Shown: piece after piece, positions 1,247 through 60,741 of the stretch
Layout: every line of letters begins with the position of its first letter
Numbering within the stretch: the stretch's first letter is position 1
Origin: Nitrospirota bacterium
GTDB taxonomy: Bacteria > Nitrospirota > JACRHJ01
Assembly (NCBI GenBank): GCA_016212105.1
Contig: JACRHJ010000006.1
Span: forward strand, 1-64,000
Reading direction: 5' to 3'
DNA: 64,000 nucleotides
Translations under genes and position numbers: made by a program
The notes under the pieces: model-generated
What the model was told of the DNA's origin: nothing
The model's input: the letters and a program-made list of their open reading frames with translations, nothing else
The model's database searches: none

Positions 1247-3304
1247 TTACAGCCCCAGAAGCCGCTTGACGGCCTTCACGATATTATCCGCCGTGAAGCC
1301 GAACTTCTCCATGTTTGCCTTGACCGGCGCGGACGCGCCGAACCTGTCTATGCCGAGCATGACGCCGCCGCTGCCGACGTAGCGCTCCCAGCCGAACGTC
1401 GCGCCAGCCTCGACCGAGACACGCGCGGTAACTTCCGGCGGCATGACGGACATCCTGTACCGTTCCGGCTGCTCCTCGAAAAGCTCCCACGACGGCATGG
1501 AGACGACGCGCGCCCTGATGCCCTCGGCGGACAGCGTCTCGTATGCGTCGAGCGCGATGCCGACCTCCGAGCCGGTCGCTATGATGATTGCGTCCGGTCG
1601 TCCCTTCTTGGGCCCAGCGAGGACGTACGCGCCCGAAGCTAAGCCGGAGGCAGGGGCGTACCTGGTCCGGTCGGTTATCTTTAAATCCTGCCGCGACATG
1701 ACGAGCGAGACCGGGCCGGCCTTCCGTGTCATGGCGGCCTTCCATGCCTCCGCGGTCTCGCTGGCGTCAGCGGGACGGATGACGGTCATCCCCGGCATCG
1801 CCCGGAGCGAGGCGACGTGCTCGACCGGCTGGTGTGTCGGGCCGTCCTCGCCGAGCGAGACAGAGTCGTGGGTGAAGACATACAGGACGTGCAGGCCGGC
1901 AAGCGCGGCGAGCCGCATCGACGGGCGCATGTAGTCCGAGAATACGAGGAAGGTGCTGCCGTATGGGATTAGCCCGCCGTGCGCGGCCATGCCGTTGAGG
2001 ATACCGCCCATGCCGTGCTCGCGCACGCCGAACGCGACGTTGGGCGAGCCGTAGCCCCACGGGCCTTTTTGCGAACCCTGGACGGTGTCGTCGCCCGTGC
2101 CGGGTGCCTGGAAGCTGCCCATGCCCTTGAGCGCGGTCTTCGTGGACGGGTCGAGGTCCGCCGAACCGCCGATTAAGTTCGGGACTCGTTTCGCCAAGGC
2201 GTTCATTATCTCGCCGCCCGCGGTGCGTGTTGCTACAGGCTTGTGGTCTGGGGTGTATACGGGGACGTCCGAGTCCCAGCCCTCGGGCAGCCTGCCGGAC
2301 ATGAAGCGCGACCACTCGGCGGCCTCGGCCGGGTATTTTTTCGCGTAACGCGCGAAGAGTTTTTCCCACGCCGCCTGCGCCTTCTCTCCGTGCTTCACCG
2401 AACTCCTGTAAACCTTCAGCGCCTCGGCGGGTATATGGAACTTCGCTTCGGCAGGCCAGCCGAGGTTCTTCTTCGTGGCGATGGTCTCGTCCGGGCCGAG
2501 CGGGGAGCCGTGCGCCTCGAAGGAGTCCTGCATGTGCGGGCTGCCGTATCCTATGTGCGTGTCCACGATGATGATCGACGGCTTCGCACCTTCTGCCTTG
2601 GCGGCTAGGAGGGCTTTTTCAACCGCGCCTGCATCGTTGCCTTTACGCACCCGCTGGACGTGCCAGCCGTATGCCGCAAACCGGCCCGCGACGTCCTCGG
2701 TGAAGGTCATCTTCGTGGATGCCGCGAGTGATACGCGGTTGTTGTCGTAGAGGCATATCAGCCGGCCGAGGCCCAGGTGCCCCGCGAGCGACGCGGCCTC
2801 GGAGGCGACGCCCTCCATCAGGTCGCCGTCCCCGCATAATGTGTAGGTGAAGTGGTCGACAATTTCGAAGCCGGGCCTGTTGAAACGCGCCGCGAGGGAC
2901 CGCTCGGCGACCGCGAGGCCGACAGCGTTCGCAAGGCCCTGGCCGAGCGGGCCGGTCGTCACCTCGACGCCCTTCGCCAGCTCGGACTCCGGGTGTCCGG
3001 GCGTTATGCTCCCCCACTGCCGGAAGGCCTTCAACTGCTCCATCGTCATGGACTCGTAACCGGTCAGGTGGAGGAGCGAGTACAGGAGCGCGGAGCCGTG
3101 TCCCGCGGACAGGACGAACCGGTCCCTGTCCGGCCAGGCCGGGTCTTTGGGGTTGTGTTTCATCACGCGCGTCCAGAGCGCGTAGGCCATGGGGGCCGCG
3201 CCCATGCATATGCCGGGGTGCCCGGAGTTGGCCTTCTCGACCATGTCCACCGCGAGCATGCGGAGCGTGTTTATGCAGAGGGTATCGAGGTCCTTTTCGG
3301 GCAT
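1247..3304 (-). CDS. tkt: Transketolase
   Basis: TPP motif [32 protein letters not shown] and typical transketolase length (685 aa). Confidence 0.96.
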
Positions 3305-3472
3305 TGATATGTTCCTTTCGGGGTTGTTTGTATTTGCTGGAGAAACATGTTATGACATTTCAGCGGGCATTACAAGTATAACAGATGAAACCAGCCCTTC
3401 CCTCCTGTCCCCTCCCTTCACAGGGGGAGGGCTGGGGTGGGGGTTGGTTTTGCCCCCGCCTTGTGCTAAAAT

Positions 3473-4612
3473 ATGAATAACATGCCCAAGCACAAAAAAC
3501 CCAAAAAACCGTTCAGGCTTTCGATTGGAAGCCGGAGCCTGACCTTCACCCCGCTCGGGTGGCGGTTCATCCTGATAAGCCTCGGCGTCGGCCTCGCGGC
3601 CGTCAACAGCGGCAGCAACCTCCTGTACCTTGTCGTCGCCATGATGCTCTCGATGGTGCTCATCTCGGGAGTCCTGTCCGAGCAGGCCATCAGCGGCCTC
3701 CGGGTCACGAGGCGGCTGCCCGACGCCGTGTACGCGCTGACGCCCGTCCAGGTCCGCTACACCGTCGTCAACAGGAAGAAGTTCATGCCGTCTTTCGGCC
3801 TCGCGGTATCGGACTACTGGCCGGGCGGGCCTTCCGGGCCGGGGGCGTATGTCCTGAAGCTCGGGCCGGGCGAAGAGGGCAAAGCCGCCGCGTCCGTCGT
3901 GGCCCCCGCGCGCGGGCGGTGGTCCATAACCGGCACGGAGGTTACAACCAGTTTCCCGTTCGGTTTGTTCCGGAAGACGCAGAGGCTCGCCAGGGAAGAG
4001 GTCAAGCTCGTGTACCCGCGCATAAGGGAGCTTGGCGGGGACGAGCTGGATCCGCTGGCCGGAGGGCTGGGCGAGGAACCTGCGCCCCGTCGCGGACAGG
4101 GCGGCGGCCTCCACGGCCTGCGCGGGTACCAAAGGACGGACGACGCAAGGCACATACACTGGAAACGCTCCGCCGGGCGTGATACGCTGATGGTGAAGGA
4201 GTTCGAGGCGGAGGAGACGCGGGCGGTGCGGGTGGTGTTCGACAACCACGCCCCTGAACGGCCCGCGCCGGACTACGAGACAAGGTTTGAGGAGGCGGTG
4301 ACGCGCGCGGCCTCCGTGGTCCATCACCTGCTCACAGACCGGGACGTCCCGGTCTCCTTCGTCAGCCGGGACGCGTACATACCTCCGGGGAGCGGCCAGG
4401 CCCAGTACAGGCTCGTCATGGAGACGCTCGCGGGCATTACGCCGGTAAAGGACACCGGCCCGGACATGCTCTCCCTGCAAACGGACGACGCCCAGACGCT
4501 CATGATAGCAGTGGACAGCGGCACCGGACCGGCCACCGTGGATGCGTCCGCCGGACGCTCCGCCGGACGCACTGGCGGACGCCCCGGGCTGGCGCCGGAG
4601 GCGAAGCCATGA
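3473..4612 (+). CDS. DUF58 domain membrane protein
   Basis: Two N-terminal TM segments, then GLHGLRGYQRTDDARHIHWKRSAGRDTLMVKEFE DUF58 signature. Confidence 0.88.
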   Translation: MNNMPKHKKPKKPFRLSIGSRSLTFTPLGWRFILISLGVGLAAVNSGSNLLYLVVAMMLSMVLISGVLSEQAISGLRVTRRLPDAVYALTPVQVRYTVVNRKKFMPSFGLAVSDYWPGGPSGPGAYVLKLGPGEEGKAAASVVAPARGRWSITGTEVTTSFPFGLFRKTQRLAREEVKLVYPRIRELGGDELDPLAGGLGEEPAPRRGQGGGLHGLRGYQRTDDARHIHWKRSAGRDTLMVKEFEAEETRAVRVVFDNHAPERPAPDYETRFEEAVTRAASVVHHLLTDRDVPVSFVSRDAYIPPGSGQAQYRLVMETLAGITPVKDTGPDMLSLQTDDAQTLMIAVDSGTGPATVDASAGRSAGRTGGRPGLAPEAKP

Positions 4613-6657
4613 GGTTCTCGCGCGCATTCGGGATGTCGTACCGGCTCGCGGCGCTGTCTGGCCTGCTCGCCCTCGCCCTGACGTTCGAGGCGGCCTACTG
4701 GCTCATTGTCCCGGCGGCGGCCCTTGTCCTCGCGGGGTTCGCATACCCGGAGAGGCTCGGGCGGCCGGTCATCCCGGCGGGGGCGGTAGCCGCGCTCACG
4801 GCCGCCGCGTTCTTATTCTCCATAATAGACTTCTTCTACATCGGCGGCTCGCTCGTGATGGCGGGCGCGGACTTCCTCGTCATAATCCTCTGCATAAAGC
4901 TCCTCTCGCTCGCGGAGGAGAAGGACTACGTCCAGCTCTTCGCGGTCAGCTTCTTCCTGCTCCTCGCCTCGACCGGCCTGTCGACGGAGATTTACTTCCT
5001 CGCGGCCTTCTTCATGTTCTTCGTCTCGCTCACCTGGTCGCTGATGCTGCTCAACGTGAAGGGCGAGTCCGAGCGTGTCGCGGGCAGGCAGCCCAACTGG
5101 CGGGTCGGAAAAGGCTTCTTCGCCGGGTCGGCGTTCATGACGCTCGGCGCGGCGGCGGCGACCCTCGCCATATTCCTCGTGATACCGAGGGTCGGCATCG
5201 GGTTCTTCAGCAAGCGGGCGGGCGGGCTCCTCAAGACCTCCGGCTTCTCGGACACGGTGGACCTCGGCTCGATGGGCGGGGTAAAGCTCGACCCGACGAC
5301 GGTGATGCGCATCAGCCTGTCCGGGCCCGGGCTGAGGCCGGATGCGCCGATGTACTGGCGGGGCCGGTCGTTCGACCTGTACAGCGGCACGGGGTGGGAG
5401 GACACGCAGGGCGGCGGGCAGGAGACATACCAGGCCCGGATGGGCATGTTCTACCTTTCGGGCGGCAGGCCGGACGCGGCCAGGGCCGTAATCCAGGAGG
5501 TCTCGCTGGAGCCGCTCGACACGGCGGTCATCTTCGGACTGTCCCCGGCCTACGCGGTGACCGGTTCGTTCAGGGTCATGCGCGTGTCGCCCTCGGGCGT
5601 CCTGTCCCTGCCCTTCGCGCCGGGCAGCAGGCTTCACTACACCGTGTACTCCACCCCCGGCCCCGCCCCGGAGGGGCCGAAGGCGCTCATCCCCGGATAC
5701 TTGCGGATGCCGGATGGCTCCGGTGAACTCGCGCGTCTGGCGGCCGGGACCACTGCGGGGGCGGCAGGCCCGGAGGAAAAGGCCGCGCGTATAGAAGGAT
5801 ACCTGGAGAGAAACTACGCATACTCGCTCGACCCGCCGAGGGACAGCCGATACAGCCCCATAGACGACTTCCTTTTTCATGGGAAGTCCGGCTACTGCGA
5901 ACATTTCGCTACCGCGATGGCGCTGATGCTGCGCGCCTCGGGCGTGCCCGCGCGTATGGTATCCGGCTTCTCGGGCGGGGAGTGGAACGGGTACGGCGGC
6001 TACTACATCGTCCGGGAGAGGGACGCGCACACCTGGGTCGAGGCGCTTGTGCCGGGCAAGGGTTGGGTGGTGTACGACCCGACCCCGCAGTCCGCCGCGC
6101 AGGAGAGGCCGTCGGCCTTCTCGGCCGTTTCCGGCGCGCTCGACTACCTGAAGTACCGCTGGGACCGCTACGTCGTATACTACAACATCCGGGACCAGCT
6201 CGAGGGCATCGGCGCCCTGTCCGACGCGTACCGGAGCGTCAGGGACGGACTGTCCGGCGTTTCATCGTCCATCGGGGACAGCCTCGGCATGCCGGATACA
6301 GGCGGGCTCAGGATTAAACCCGGCAGGCTGCTGCTCGGCCTCGCGGCAATGTTTATTGTAGCGGCAATGGCATACGCCGTCTGGCGGGTCCGCAAGGGGC
6401 CGGGCGGCAGGGGCCGGTCTTCCGTCCGGTTCTACGAGGATATGGCGGCGGCCCTGGCGAAGAGGGGCGCGGTCAGAAACCCCGGCAACACGCCTCTCGA
6501 GTTCGCGGGTGTGGTAGAGCCGTCGGATACCGGCCGGTACAAAGGCGTCGTATACGTTACCCGGCTGTACAACCGCGTGCGATTCGGAGGCAGGCCGCTG
6601 GACGCCGCCGAGCGGGAGCGGGTTAAGGGCGTCATAGAGCGGATTGGGCGGGAGTGA
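4609..6657 (+). CDS. TgpA-like DUF3488/transglutaminase-core membrane protein
   Basis: N-terminal TM helices; GYCEHFATAMALMLRASGVPARMVSGF...DAHTWVEALVPGKGWVVYDPTP transglutaminase core; overlaps DUF58 gene by 4 nt. Confidence 0.9.
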   Translation: MRFSRAFGMSYRLAALSGLLALALTFEAAYWLIVPAAALVLAGFAYPERLGRPVIPAGAVAALTAAAFLFSIIDFFYIGGSLVMAGADFLVIILCIKLLSLAEEKDYVQLFAVSFFLLLASTGLSTEIYFLAAFFMFFVSLTWSLMLLNVKGESERVAGRQPNWRVGKGFFAGSAFMTLGAAAATLAIFLVIPRVGIGFFSKRAGGLLKTSGFSDTVDLGSMGGVKLDPTTVMRISLSGPGLRPDAPMYWRGRSFDLYSGTGWEDTQGGGQETYQARMGMFYLSGGRPDAARAVIQEVSLEPLDTAVIFGLSPAYAVTGSFRVMRVSPSGVLSLPFAPGSRLHYTVYSTPGPAPEGPKALIPGYLRMPDGSGELARLAAGTTAGAAGPEEKAARIEGYLERNYAYSLDPPRDSRYSPIDDFLFHGKSGYCEHFATAMALMLRASGVPARMVSGFSGGEWNGYGGYYIVRERDAHTWVEALVPGKGWVVYDPTPQSAAQERPSAFSAVSGALDYLKYRWDRYVVYYNIRDQLEGIGALSDAYRSVRDGLSGVSSSIGDSLGMPDTGGLRIKPGRLLLGLAAMFIVAAMAYAVWRVRKGPGGRGRSSVRFYEDMAAALAKRGAVRNPGNTPLEFAGVVEPSDTGRYKGVVYVTRLYNRVRFGGRPLDAAERERVKGVIERIGRE

Positions 6658-57901: not shown

Positions 57902-58456
57902 CTATGCCTTGGCTGCCTTCTTTGCGGGCGCGGCCTTCTTCGCAGCAGGCTTCTTCGCCGCCGTGGCAGGCTTGGCCTTGGCGGCCGCCGTGGGCTTCGC
58001 GGCCGCTTTTTTGGCAGGGGCCTTCTTTGCGGGCGCGGCCTTGGCGGCCTTGATGCCTGCCTTTACGCCGGCCTTCGCAATCTTCACCGCGTCGCTCGCG
58101 GGCTTCGCCACGTCGTCGGCCAGCTTCACCATCTTGTCGGCGTACTGGGAGGCCTTGTCGGCGGCCTTGTGTGCGGATGTGGCTGCGGACTTGAGCGCCT
58201 TGTCGGCGGCGTCTATGGCGGTGACCTCCGCGAGCTTCAGCGCCTTGTTGAAGGCGTTCTTCGCGGCTAACGCCGCTACCTTGGCGGCCTTTACCGCGAG
58301 GTCGGCGGAGTCTTTCGCGGCCTTCGCCTCGGCGTGGTGCGGCGGGGACTTCTTGACCGCTGCCTTCTTGACGGGCTTCTTCGCGGCTGGCTTGACATCC
58401 GGCTTTACTGCGGACTTCACTGCGGGCTTTGCTGCTGGTTTTTTTGCGGTAGCCAT
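57902..58456 (-). CDS. Lys/Ala-rich histone H1-like DNA-binding protein
   Basis: MATAKKPAAKPAVKSAVKPDVKPAAKKPVKKAAVKKS... C-terminal PAKKAPAKKAAAKPTAAAKAKPATAAKKPAAKKA. Confidence 0.82.
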   Translation of the reverse strand: MATAKKPAAKPAVKSAVKPDVKPAAKKPVKKAAVKKSPPHHAEAKAAKDSADLAVKAAKVAALAAKNAFNKALKLAEVTAIDAADKALKSAATSAHKAADKASQYADKMVKLADDVAKPASDAVKIAKAGVKAGIKAAKAAPAKKAPAKKAAAKPTAAAKAKPATAAKKPAAKKAAPAKKAAKA

Positions 58457-58657
58457 CTTACCCCCATGTCTTTCGGTTATGAAAAATCGGACGGTGTGTG
58501 AAGCTTACCCGGTACTTCCCTTGCAAAAGCCGTGCGTTCTGTTGATTGTATATGCAAATGCGGTGGAATGTCAAGCAAATGAAGAGGATATGAGGAGAGG
58601 GGGTTGAGGGTGATGGGCCTCCCTGTGGATACAAGACCATCCCGGTAAAGTTTTCCC

Positions 58658-58698
58658 TTGACAACCACGTTAAAATATGAAATAGTTCTTATATAATA
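58658..58698 (+). promoter_or_regulatory. AT-rich promoter-like segment of the small Cys-rich gene
   Basis: TTGACA at 58658-58663 and TATAAT at 58693-58698 in an otherwise GC-rich window; the two boxes are not ideally spaced to each other, so the exact pair is uncertain. Confidence 0.35.
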
Positions 58699-58788
58699 AC
58701 CGTTCGACTTGGAAAGGAGGCGAGCAGCATAAGGCCTACAGGCTTTCAGGGGACGGCAACGAAATCATAAACAACCGGGAGGGACATA

Positions 58789-58971
58789 ATGACAGCTACC
58801 CAAACAATATCGCAGTCCAAGGCGACCTTGAAGAAGAAGGGCTTTCCGGTCGGCAGGCTCGGTGCGCACATCAAGCAGGGCATAGGCGCGAGCGCGTTCG
58901 ACTACTGGGAGGACCGCGCCAAATGCTGCCAGCCCGGCGGCTGCGGCGTCGGCTGCAATACCGGGAAGTGA
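58789..58971 (+). CDS. Small Cys-tailed peptide (60 aa)
   Basis: MTATQTISQSKATLKKKGFPVGRLGAHIKQGIGASAFDYWEDRAKCCQPGGCGVGCNTGK; GGGAGGGA Shine-Dalgarno; strong downstream terminator. Confidence 0.75.
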   Translation: MTATQTISQSKATLKKKGFPVGRLGAHIKQGIGASAFDYWEDRAKCCQPGGCGVGCNTGK

Positions 58972-59013
58972 GTCTGGTTCCGGGCCTTTTGACTGCCCGG
59001 CTATACTGAAATG

Positions 59014-59047
59014 AACAGGGGCACAGGCGAAGGCCGGTGCCCCTGTT
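59014..59047 (+). terminator. Rho-independent terminator-like hairpin after the Cys-rich gene
   Basis: AACAGGGGCAC-AGGCGAAGGCCG-GTGCCCCTGTT, 11 bp perfect stem. Confidence 0.75.
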
Positions 59048-59301
59048 GTTATTGTCTTCATGCAGGGGCAGGGCCCCGTGCCTGGCCATCTTGTCATTGC
59101 CGACAATGAATAATTCCTGGATTCCCGCCTTCGCGGGAATGACGGAAAAGACCGGGCGGCCACAGAGGGCCGCCCCTACACGAGGAAAAGAAGGGCCGAC
59201 ACACGGGTCGGCCCCTACATAAAATCATTCACGAACACGAAACGCGTCCTTCAACGCCCCTACATAAAATCCCTCACGAACACGAAGCAAGCCCTTTTCC
59301 T

Positions 59302-59347
59302 GCTAGTCCCTAGCCCCTAGCCCCTAGCCCCTAGCCCCTAGCCCCTG
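59302..59347. repeat. Tandem heptamer TAGCCCC tract (G-rich on minus strand)
   Basis: ctagtccctagcccctagcccctagcccctagcccctagcccctgcc directly after the stop codon of the minus-strand HHE gene. Confidence 0.85.
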
Positions 59348-59349
59348 CC

Positions 59350-60741
59350 TTACTCCCAGTCCAGAAGCCTCTTGTCGCCTTCAAGCGCGCGAAGCTCGGT
59401 CAGGTCCTGGCTGACTTCCAGTATCCCGCGATACCTGCCCGCATCGTCCCGCACCGCGAAGTAGCGGATGTATATAAACCGGCCCTTCATCTGTATCCAG
59501 AACTCGGCGGTGTCTTTTTCCCCTTTTTTGAACGCGTCGATAATCTTCTCGACGGTGTGCACGCTCTTGGGCGGGTGGCAGTTCTGGACGCGCCTGCCGA
59601 TTACCGCCGGGCTCCGCGGGAATATCCTGTCTGCCGTCGCCGAGTAGTACACGACCTCGTCGTTTTCGTCCACGAAGGAGATGTCCACCGGCAGGTGTTT
59701 CAGCATCAGGTTTACCTGCTCGGCGGTCAGGCGGCCCGTGTCGAGGTTCAGGCTCCCGGCCTGCCCGCCGGGCATGCCAGCCGCCCCGGACGGCGCCATC
59801 GGCCCCGGCCCGTTCACCCACGCGAAGCCTATCTCCTCCTCGCCCCGCTTCACCTTCAGCCAGTCCTCCTCGGACAGGGTCTCGAGCGCCATCGGGTAAA
59901 GTATATGCTCCTCCTTGTATATCATGTCCTCGAACATGGCAACCAGGCCGTCCACCCAGACCTTGTCGAACTCGCCCGCGGCGGCCTTCGCAATGCCCGC
60001 CTTGAGGTTCGCGCGTATGTCGTCGTGCAGCGCCCACATAACCTTGGAAGGGCCGGATATTCCCTTCGCTTCGAGTATCGGGAAAAGCTGGTTCTCTTTG
60101 CGGAGATAATGCTTCTCGACCGGCGCGATGCGCTCGTACATCCGGGCGAGCCCGGCCGCGTCCTTCTGCTCGACGATGTCGTGGAGTATGGACTCCAGGT
60201 GCCTGTTCTCGAGCATCAGGGTATGCACCGGGTGTCCGTCCGGCAGGCCCGGCATCGTCTTCTTGTCGAGCGACTCCTTGAAGACCTCGACGTGCACCGA
60301 GCAGAGCCTCTTTACCTCGGACTCCGGCATGCCGCCCGCGATGAGCGTCTGCTCCATATGTGCTATCTCAGAAGGAGAGACGTCCTTTATCAGGTCGAGG
60401 AACCGCTTCTTGAGTATGCCAAGCTCCACGCCCTTGTGCAGGTCCTCTATGATTACCTTGAGGATAGACGCGCGCTCCTCCTGGCTCAGTTCGGCGGACG
60501 TCACCGCGACCGCCTGCCCGGTGGACTTCATGATTTCGAGCGCGACCTTCTCGATGAGCCTGTCCGGCTCCATGCCGCCTACCATCGCAACCTGGCCGAG
60601 CGTGGCGACGCGGCCGAGCGTCCTCATCATCACCGGGTTGTCGAGCGACCTGAAGCTCGGGTTCAGGCCTATGAGGAACTCCTTTAGGAAGGGGTACGTC
60701 GCAAGCACCGCCGAGAGTTTCGTGTTCGCGTTAATCTCCAT
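59350..60741 (-). CDS. DUF1858/DUF438-hemerythrin HHE-PAS protein
   Basis: DUF1858-like N-terminus; HPVHTLMLENRHLESIL...EKHYLRKENQLFPILEAKG...EEHILYPMAL; C-terminal PAS. Confidence 0.87.
   Translation of the reverse strand: MEINANTKLSAVLATYPFLKEFLIGLNPSFRSLDNPVMMRTLGRVATLGQVAMVGGMEPDRLIEKVALEIMKSTGQAVAVTSAELSQEERASILKVIIEDLHKGVELGILKKRFLDLIKDVSPSEIAHMEQTLIAGGMPESEVKRLCSVHVEVFKESLDKKTMPGLPDGHPVHTLMLENRHLESILHDIVEQKDAAGLARMYERIAPVEKHYLRKENQLFPILEAKGISGPSKVMWALHDDIRANLKAGIAKAAAGEFDKVWVDGLVAMFEDMIYKEEHILYPMALETLSEEDWLKVKRGEEEIGFAWVNGPGPMAPSGAAGMPGGQAGSLNLDTGRLTAEQVNLMLKHLPVDISFVDENDEVVYYSATADRIFPRSPAVIGRRVQNCHPPKSVHTVEKIIDAFKKGEKDTAEFWIQMKGRFIYIRYFAVRDDAGRYRGILEVSQDLTELRALEGDKRLLDWE

Follow-up and report, generated by a model that had tools for sequence, protein, structure and literature searches.

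The window, by which we mean the whole stretch of 64,000 nucleotides that was analyzed, carries a real, stand-alone gene for a protein of 60 residues, with homologues in the other genomes of its Nitrospirota class. The explanation that we prefer, with about even confidence, is that of a monocistronic, class-restricted basic microprotein, which would bind a partner through its GFPVGRLGAH segment and bear an accessory Cys tail.

The gene and its transcription unit

The preliminary description held the gene to be small and isolated, with a promoter and a terminator of its own, and this was upheld (Table 1). The product is likewise as had been described, with no Cys up to residue 45, followed by CCQPGGCGVGC. 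Among the stop-to-stop frames of at least 40 aa in the window, 5 of 806 carry at least four Cys within their final 15 residues; just two of these five, both short, have no Cys elsewhere. Third-position GC amounts to 0.82 for the whole ORF and to 0.88 for the Cys tail, compared with 0.86 to 0.87 in neighboring genes; this coding-like value in the tail indicates that it lies in the true reading frame.

Table 1 Features of the small-protein gene and of a candidate cassette elsewhere in the same genome. Positions refer to the window, except those of the cassette, which are counted within locus L044.
Feature	Position	Strand	Basis or remark
Promoter core CTTGACAA-N12-ATGAAATAGTT, -35 TTGACA, extended -10 TGA-AATAGT	about 58657-58687	+	consensus match 10/12
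Second, overlapping promoter-like site TTAAAA-16-TATAAT	58670-58697	+	not conserved in homologues
Presumed 5' leader, ~95 nt	58694-58788	+	length inferred from promoter
Second, perfect SD-like AAAGGAGG	58713-58720	+	within leader; no start codon behind it
Claimed small leader hairpin AAGGCC-TACA-GGCTTT	~58732-58747	+	missing from predicted fold
Shine-Dalgarno-like GGGAGGGA of real start	58777-58784	+	direct reading
Small-protein gene MTATQTISQSKATLKKKGFPVGRLGAHIKQGIGASAFDYWEDRAKCCQPGGCGVGCNTGK	58789-58971	+	60 aa; class-genome homologues
Conserved block of the 60-aa protein	residues 15-31	+	alignment
Lineage-specific Cys tail	residues 46-56, nt 58924-58956	+	alignment
Strong terminator-like hairpin, then GTTATTGTC	59014-59047	+	fold z = -4.2
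L044 HprK-like kinase	first gene listed of cassette	+	
L044 PqqD	3300-3578	+	
L044 radical SAM/SPASM	3524-4564	+	
L044 54-aa peptide MEQEKKPWLRPELEELSVNPPGECNPGWPQGAICNFQGVPQYQTSCNQKPTVLS	4569-4733	+	weak paeninodin-lasso-like start
L044 transglutaminase-like B2 protein	4741-5313	+	

The AT-rich promoter-like segment that had been proposed is present, the 61 bases upstream having 31% GC versus 62% for the whole window. The promoter core reads TTGACA-17-AATAGT, at 58658-58686, a TG preceding the -10 element (TTGACA-14-TGn when written from the TG), and its spacing is identical in the five sister-genus loci, so that the pattern CTTGACAA-N12-[AG]TGN[AG]ANANTT holds in 6/6 genomes across two genera. 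This 30-nt pattern occurs once in each of the six genomes, always upstream of the small-protein gene, and a reversed control gave 0 matches. Because the pattern was drawn from the same six sites that it later matched, what counts is that it matched nowhere else, and no wider regulon with the exact pattern was seen in the six genomes. Transcription would start from a strong promoter of the gene's own, of the sigma-70 type and with an extended -10. Divergent from the peptide gene lies a Lys/Ala/Pro-rich histone H1-like gene (57902-58456, minus strand), which has its own promoter match of 11/12 at 58574-58545.

At the other end, the proposed strong terminator was confirmed, including its perfect 11-bp outer stem; the 15-bp arms are 93% complementary, and at 0-1 mismatches the window holds no second copy of the hairpin, although the T-tract behind it is weak. 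Farther downstream, the window holds short repeats and hairpins at 59114-59350, namely GGCCGCCCCTACA-type units, an GGATTCCCGCCTTCGCGGGAATGACGG element, and a 7-nt CTAGCCC tandem run. Translation would proceed from the Shine-Dalgarno site, which was found ahead of the gene as described, and the hairpin would end the transcript.

The leader fared differently. The small hairpin claimed for it does not appear in the predicted fold, and as a whole the leader shows no more stable folding (z = -1.1) than shuffled versions, of which 27 of 200 were equally good. The leaders of the homologues are ~40 nt long and do not contain the claimed hairpin. The distance from the -35 element to the ATG is 132 nt in the window versus 73-78 nt in the sister genus, which makes the long leader specific to the window. 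As the leader is conserved in neither length nor sequence and a search of Rfam gave nothing close to a gathering score, a structured cis-regulatory leader RNA is not supported. The additional SD-like sequence in the leader sits about where the sister-genus genes carry their working SD and is possibly a relic, a decoy, or a ribosome standby site.

Distribution of the family

Six genomes of the class were compared, the window genome and five sister-genus MAGs. A homologue is present in 5/5 of the latter (single-sequence search, E from 1e-8 to 2e-6), and the gene is single copy in all six. An alignment query of GTDB r220 returned five homologues, from Nitrospirae MAGs (DBS, WY, and clean isolates), and no homologue passed the test in a single-sequence scan of the same database. 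When 396 genomes of the phylum were searched with a profile, E values jumped from 1e-29 to 5e-4 beyond the known members, and no member was recognized in the ~390 other Nitrospirota genomes. Two weak matches were dismissed, one (L016) as a low-complexity repeat frame overlapping a SAM-methyltransferase-like ORF and the other (L017) as a frame interrupted by stops. No recognizable relative was seen in GTDB r220 beyond the class or among IMG/VR viral contigs, phages, and plasmids. The family appears to be confined, so far, to one poorly known Nitrospirota class.

Searches of Pfam, NCBIfam, and PHROGs with all six members gave nothing above noise, and the sole match in the PDB was universal stress protein F (E = 1.6); none of the four points to a particular partner. 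Within the sister genus, pairwise dN/dS is ~0.05-0.16, for pairs with dS > 0.8, and the nucleotide differences are mostly at third positions; the family is under strong purifying selection. No neighboring gene is conserved between the two genera in the loci compared, suggesting that the small protein acts alone.

The conserved block and the Cys tail

The alignment reveals a basic, near-invariant block, KKxGFPVGRLGAHvKnG, that defines the family. Eleven of the 17 invariant columns fall in residues 15-27 (K15 and G18-H27), the stretch G18-H27 being invariant across both genera, and the net charge of the family proteins is +6 to +8. The sister-genus proteins have 58 aa and follow the pattern M....Q.nSk..LK.KrRGFPVGRLGAHvKnGiNaTytAFFqEYEKnGLPRIGxaSIRP. 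They keep the N-terminal two thirds in common with the window protein, which has diverged from them in its helix region and its tail, KCCQPGGCG being aligned with KNGLPRIG.

The lack of a conserved Cys tail in homologues had been named beforehand as a refuting observation, and Cys is indeed absent from all five. Their C terminus, KNGLPRIGxASIRP, is as conserved as the rest of the protein. No credible match emerged when 60 other genomes of the phylum were searched with the tail only, and no second copy of the tail was found in the window genome. In a comparison where the window's genus is represented by one species, the Cys tail is, as judged from the alignment, not a family trait and is lineage-specific. 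By the same evidence, KCCQPGGCGVGCNTGK cannot provide a function common to the whole family; it is possibly a metal- or thiol-binding addition of this lineage. Since the tail is lineage-specific, it is unlikely that a modified peptide is made from the window protein.

These observations bear on the alternative of a metal- or redox-responsive microprotein whose functional center would be the CCx5Cx3C tail, as in a metallothionein-like scavenger or a metal relay. Four Cys within 11 residues are rare among the window's frames, and the tail is real coding sequence, both of which favor such a protein. We regard it as unlikely, however, in view of the Cys-free orthologues, the lack of a similar tail in the other genomes searched or of a second copy, and a promoter core that is common to the Cys-free orthologues rather than lineage-specific. 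Another arrangement, which we think very unlikely, would make KKxGFPVGRLGAHvKnG a recognition segment with exchangeable C-terminal modules, Cys-rich or Arg/Pro-ended depending on the genus, that are processed or loaded by a trans-encoded partner common to both genera.

Search for a RiPP maturase

The preliminary description had likened the gene to that of a RiPP precursor or a metal-binding microprotein. As a RiPP precursor, the protein would use KKxGFPVGRLGAH as a leader for a maturase encoded elsewhere, and its tail would be a core replaced between genera (CCQPGGCGVGCNTGK versus GLPRIGxASIRP). A conserved N-terminal part, a diverged C-terminal part, and a Cys/Gly-rich end are consistent with this idea, but the sister-genus tail is conserved like the rest of the protein, and the modifiable core Cys are missing from all five homologues. 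Moreover, no maturase, protease, or transporter gene adjoins the small-protein gene. YcaO, MNIO/DUF692 (PF05114), and LanC-like genes are absent from all six genomes, the window genome being 94% complete, as is the C39 peptidase (PF03412), for which control genomes were positive. With PF03412 in 0/6 genomes, export of the peptide as a bacteriocin through a C39 peptidase transporter finds no support.

Radical SAM/SPASM enzymes are encoded in the window genome, which would suit a RiPP precursor. In agreement with the earlier statement that the window contains no maturase, all of these genes lie off the window's contig, and the genome-wide search for YcaO or radical SAM enzymes that had been proposed yielded no YcaO and two peptide-type radical SAM genes that adjoin other small ORFs. 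Two of the SPASM enzymes, an AhbD-like heme enzyme and a GeoRSP-SPASM-like protein, have relatives in the sister genus. The two peptide-type enzymes, which are DynA-like (L043) and PqqE/mycofactocin-like with a PqqD (L044), have no counterpart there, and each adjoins a small ORF resembling its own precursor. Conversely, the GeoRSP radical SAM protein scores above the NCBIfam cut-off in 5/5 sister-genus genomes (e.g., L047, G001:C6) and is absent from the window genome. Given this pattern of shared, genus-only, and missing enzymes, no SPASM maturase within the families searched appears to track with the peptide family. We accordingly find a RiPP precursor quite improbable. The idea of a RiPP or metal-binding microprotein is thus weakened by the Cys-free homologues and the lack of a tracking maturase, and what stands is that the tail may bind metal.

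The L044 locus (G000:C4:1500-10500) is itself a candidate RiPP cassette, at 1904-5313 on the plus strand, and its gene order resembles a lasso-type layout that includes a radical SAM enzyme (Table 1). At L043 (G000:C17:33000-42000; 4043-5366, minus strand), the DynA-like radical SAM/SPASM gene is followed by one for a 62-aa His/Cys-rich candidate precursor, MENTN...CCANHSNYSDRHSDHHDHSDCTCFIGGL, and a 272-aa ORF lies upstream. The GeoRSP family is named after Geobacter, and the GeoRSP radical SAM protein of the sister genus occurs outside Geobacter.

Predicted structure and resemblance to histones

In the AlphaFold model of the window protein, a helix runs from residue 24 to 46; in that of the sister genus it begins at residue 21 and also ends at 46. 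The pLDDT values, 52 and 54, make both models too low in confidence for a fold search. Compared with shuffled sequences, the helix is not significantly amphipathic in the window protein (p = 0.49) and marginally so in the sister proteins (p = 0.03-0.05); an amphipathic membrane helix was rejected for the window protein.

The GFPVGR..(7)..KnG pattern imitates the start of histone alpha-1, sharing 6/14 identities with residues 25-38 of histone H2A (QFPVGRVHRLLRKG). Together with the basic charge and the H1-like gene on the opposite strand, this likeness might suggest a DNA-associated peptide. The hhalign probability is, however, 11% for H2A and 0.8% for the archaeal histone HMfB, no histone match was found in the PDB or Pfam, the protein is too short for the histone fold, and the H1-like gene does not adjoin the peptide gene in the sister genus. 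A histone was rejected on these grounds, and a DNA-associated peptide seems highly improbable.

Proposed function and comparison with known systems

In the microprotein explanation that we prefer, the working part may comprise KKxGFPVGRLGAHvKnGi and the helix that is predicted, with low confidence, to follow it (about residues 21-46). The GFPVGRLGAH segment would most likely dock on a conserved cellular partner, be it a protein, a nucleic acid, or a membrane surface. The protein would end in the conserved Cys-free KNGLPRIGxASIRP in the sister genus and in KCCQPGGCGVGCNTGK in the window lineage, where disulfides or a bound thiophilic metal could give the tail an extra property.

With one copy and a conserved promoter in each of the six class genomes examined, this undescribed, well-defined small-protein family is a marker for an uncultured Nitrospirota class. 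It also illustrates how poorly a striking Cys tail, taken alone, points to a RiPP precursor.

Comparing the family with known systems, it shares FPVGR followed by KG/NG with the alpha-1 segment of histone H2A, but the likeness is confined to 14 residues and is not significant. In common with MNIO (DUF692) copper peptides and bacterial metallothioneins, the window protein has Cys clustered in its tail, where a soft metal could be bound; here, however, there is no MNIO gene, the Cys are not conserved, and no Pfam metallothionein matches. Radical SAM RiPP precursors (SPASM, and GeoRSP-type in the sister genus) are likewise small, with a conserved N-terminal part, a divergent C-terminal part, and a Cys/Gly-rich end, whereas here no maturase is adjacent or co-occurring and the sister-genus tail is conserved and Cys-free. 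Lineage-restricted bacterial microprotein families have in common with the present one a short single-gene unit, purifying selection, the lack of a known domain, and a distribution limited to a class, from which this family stands apart by its own invariant GFPVGRLGAH and by a Cys tail that was either gained or lost as the genera diverged.
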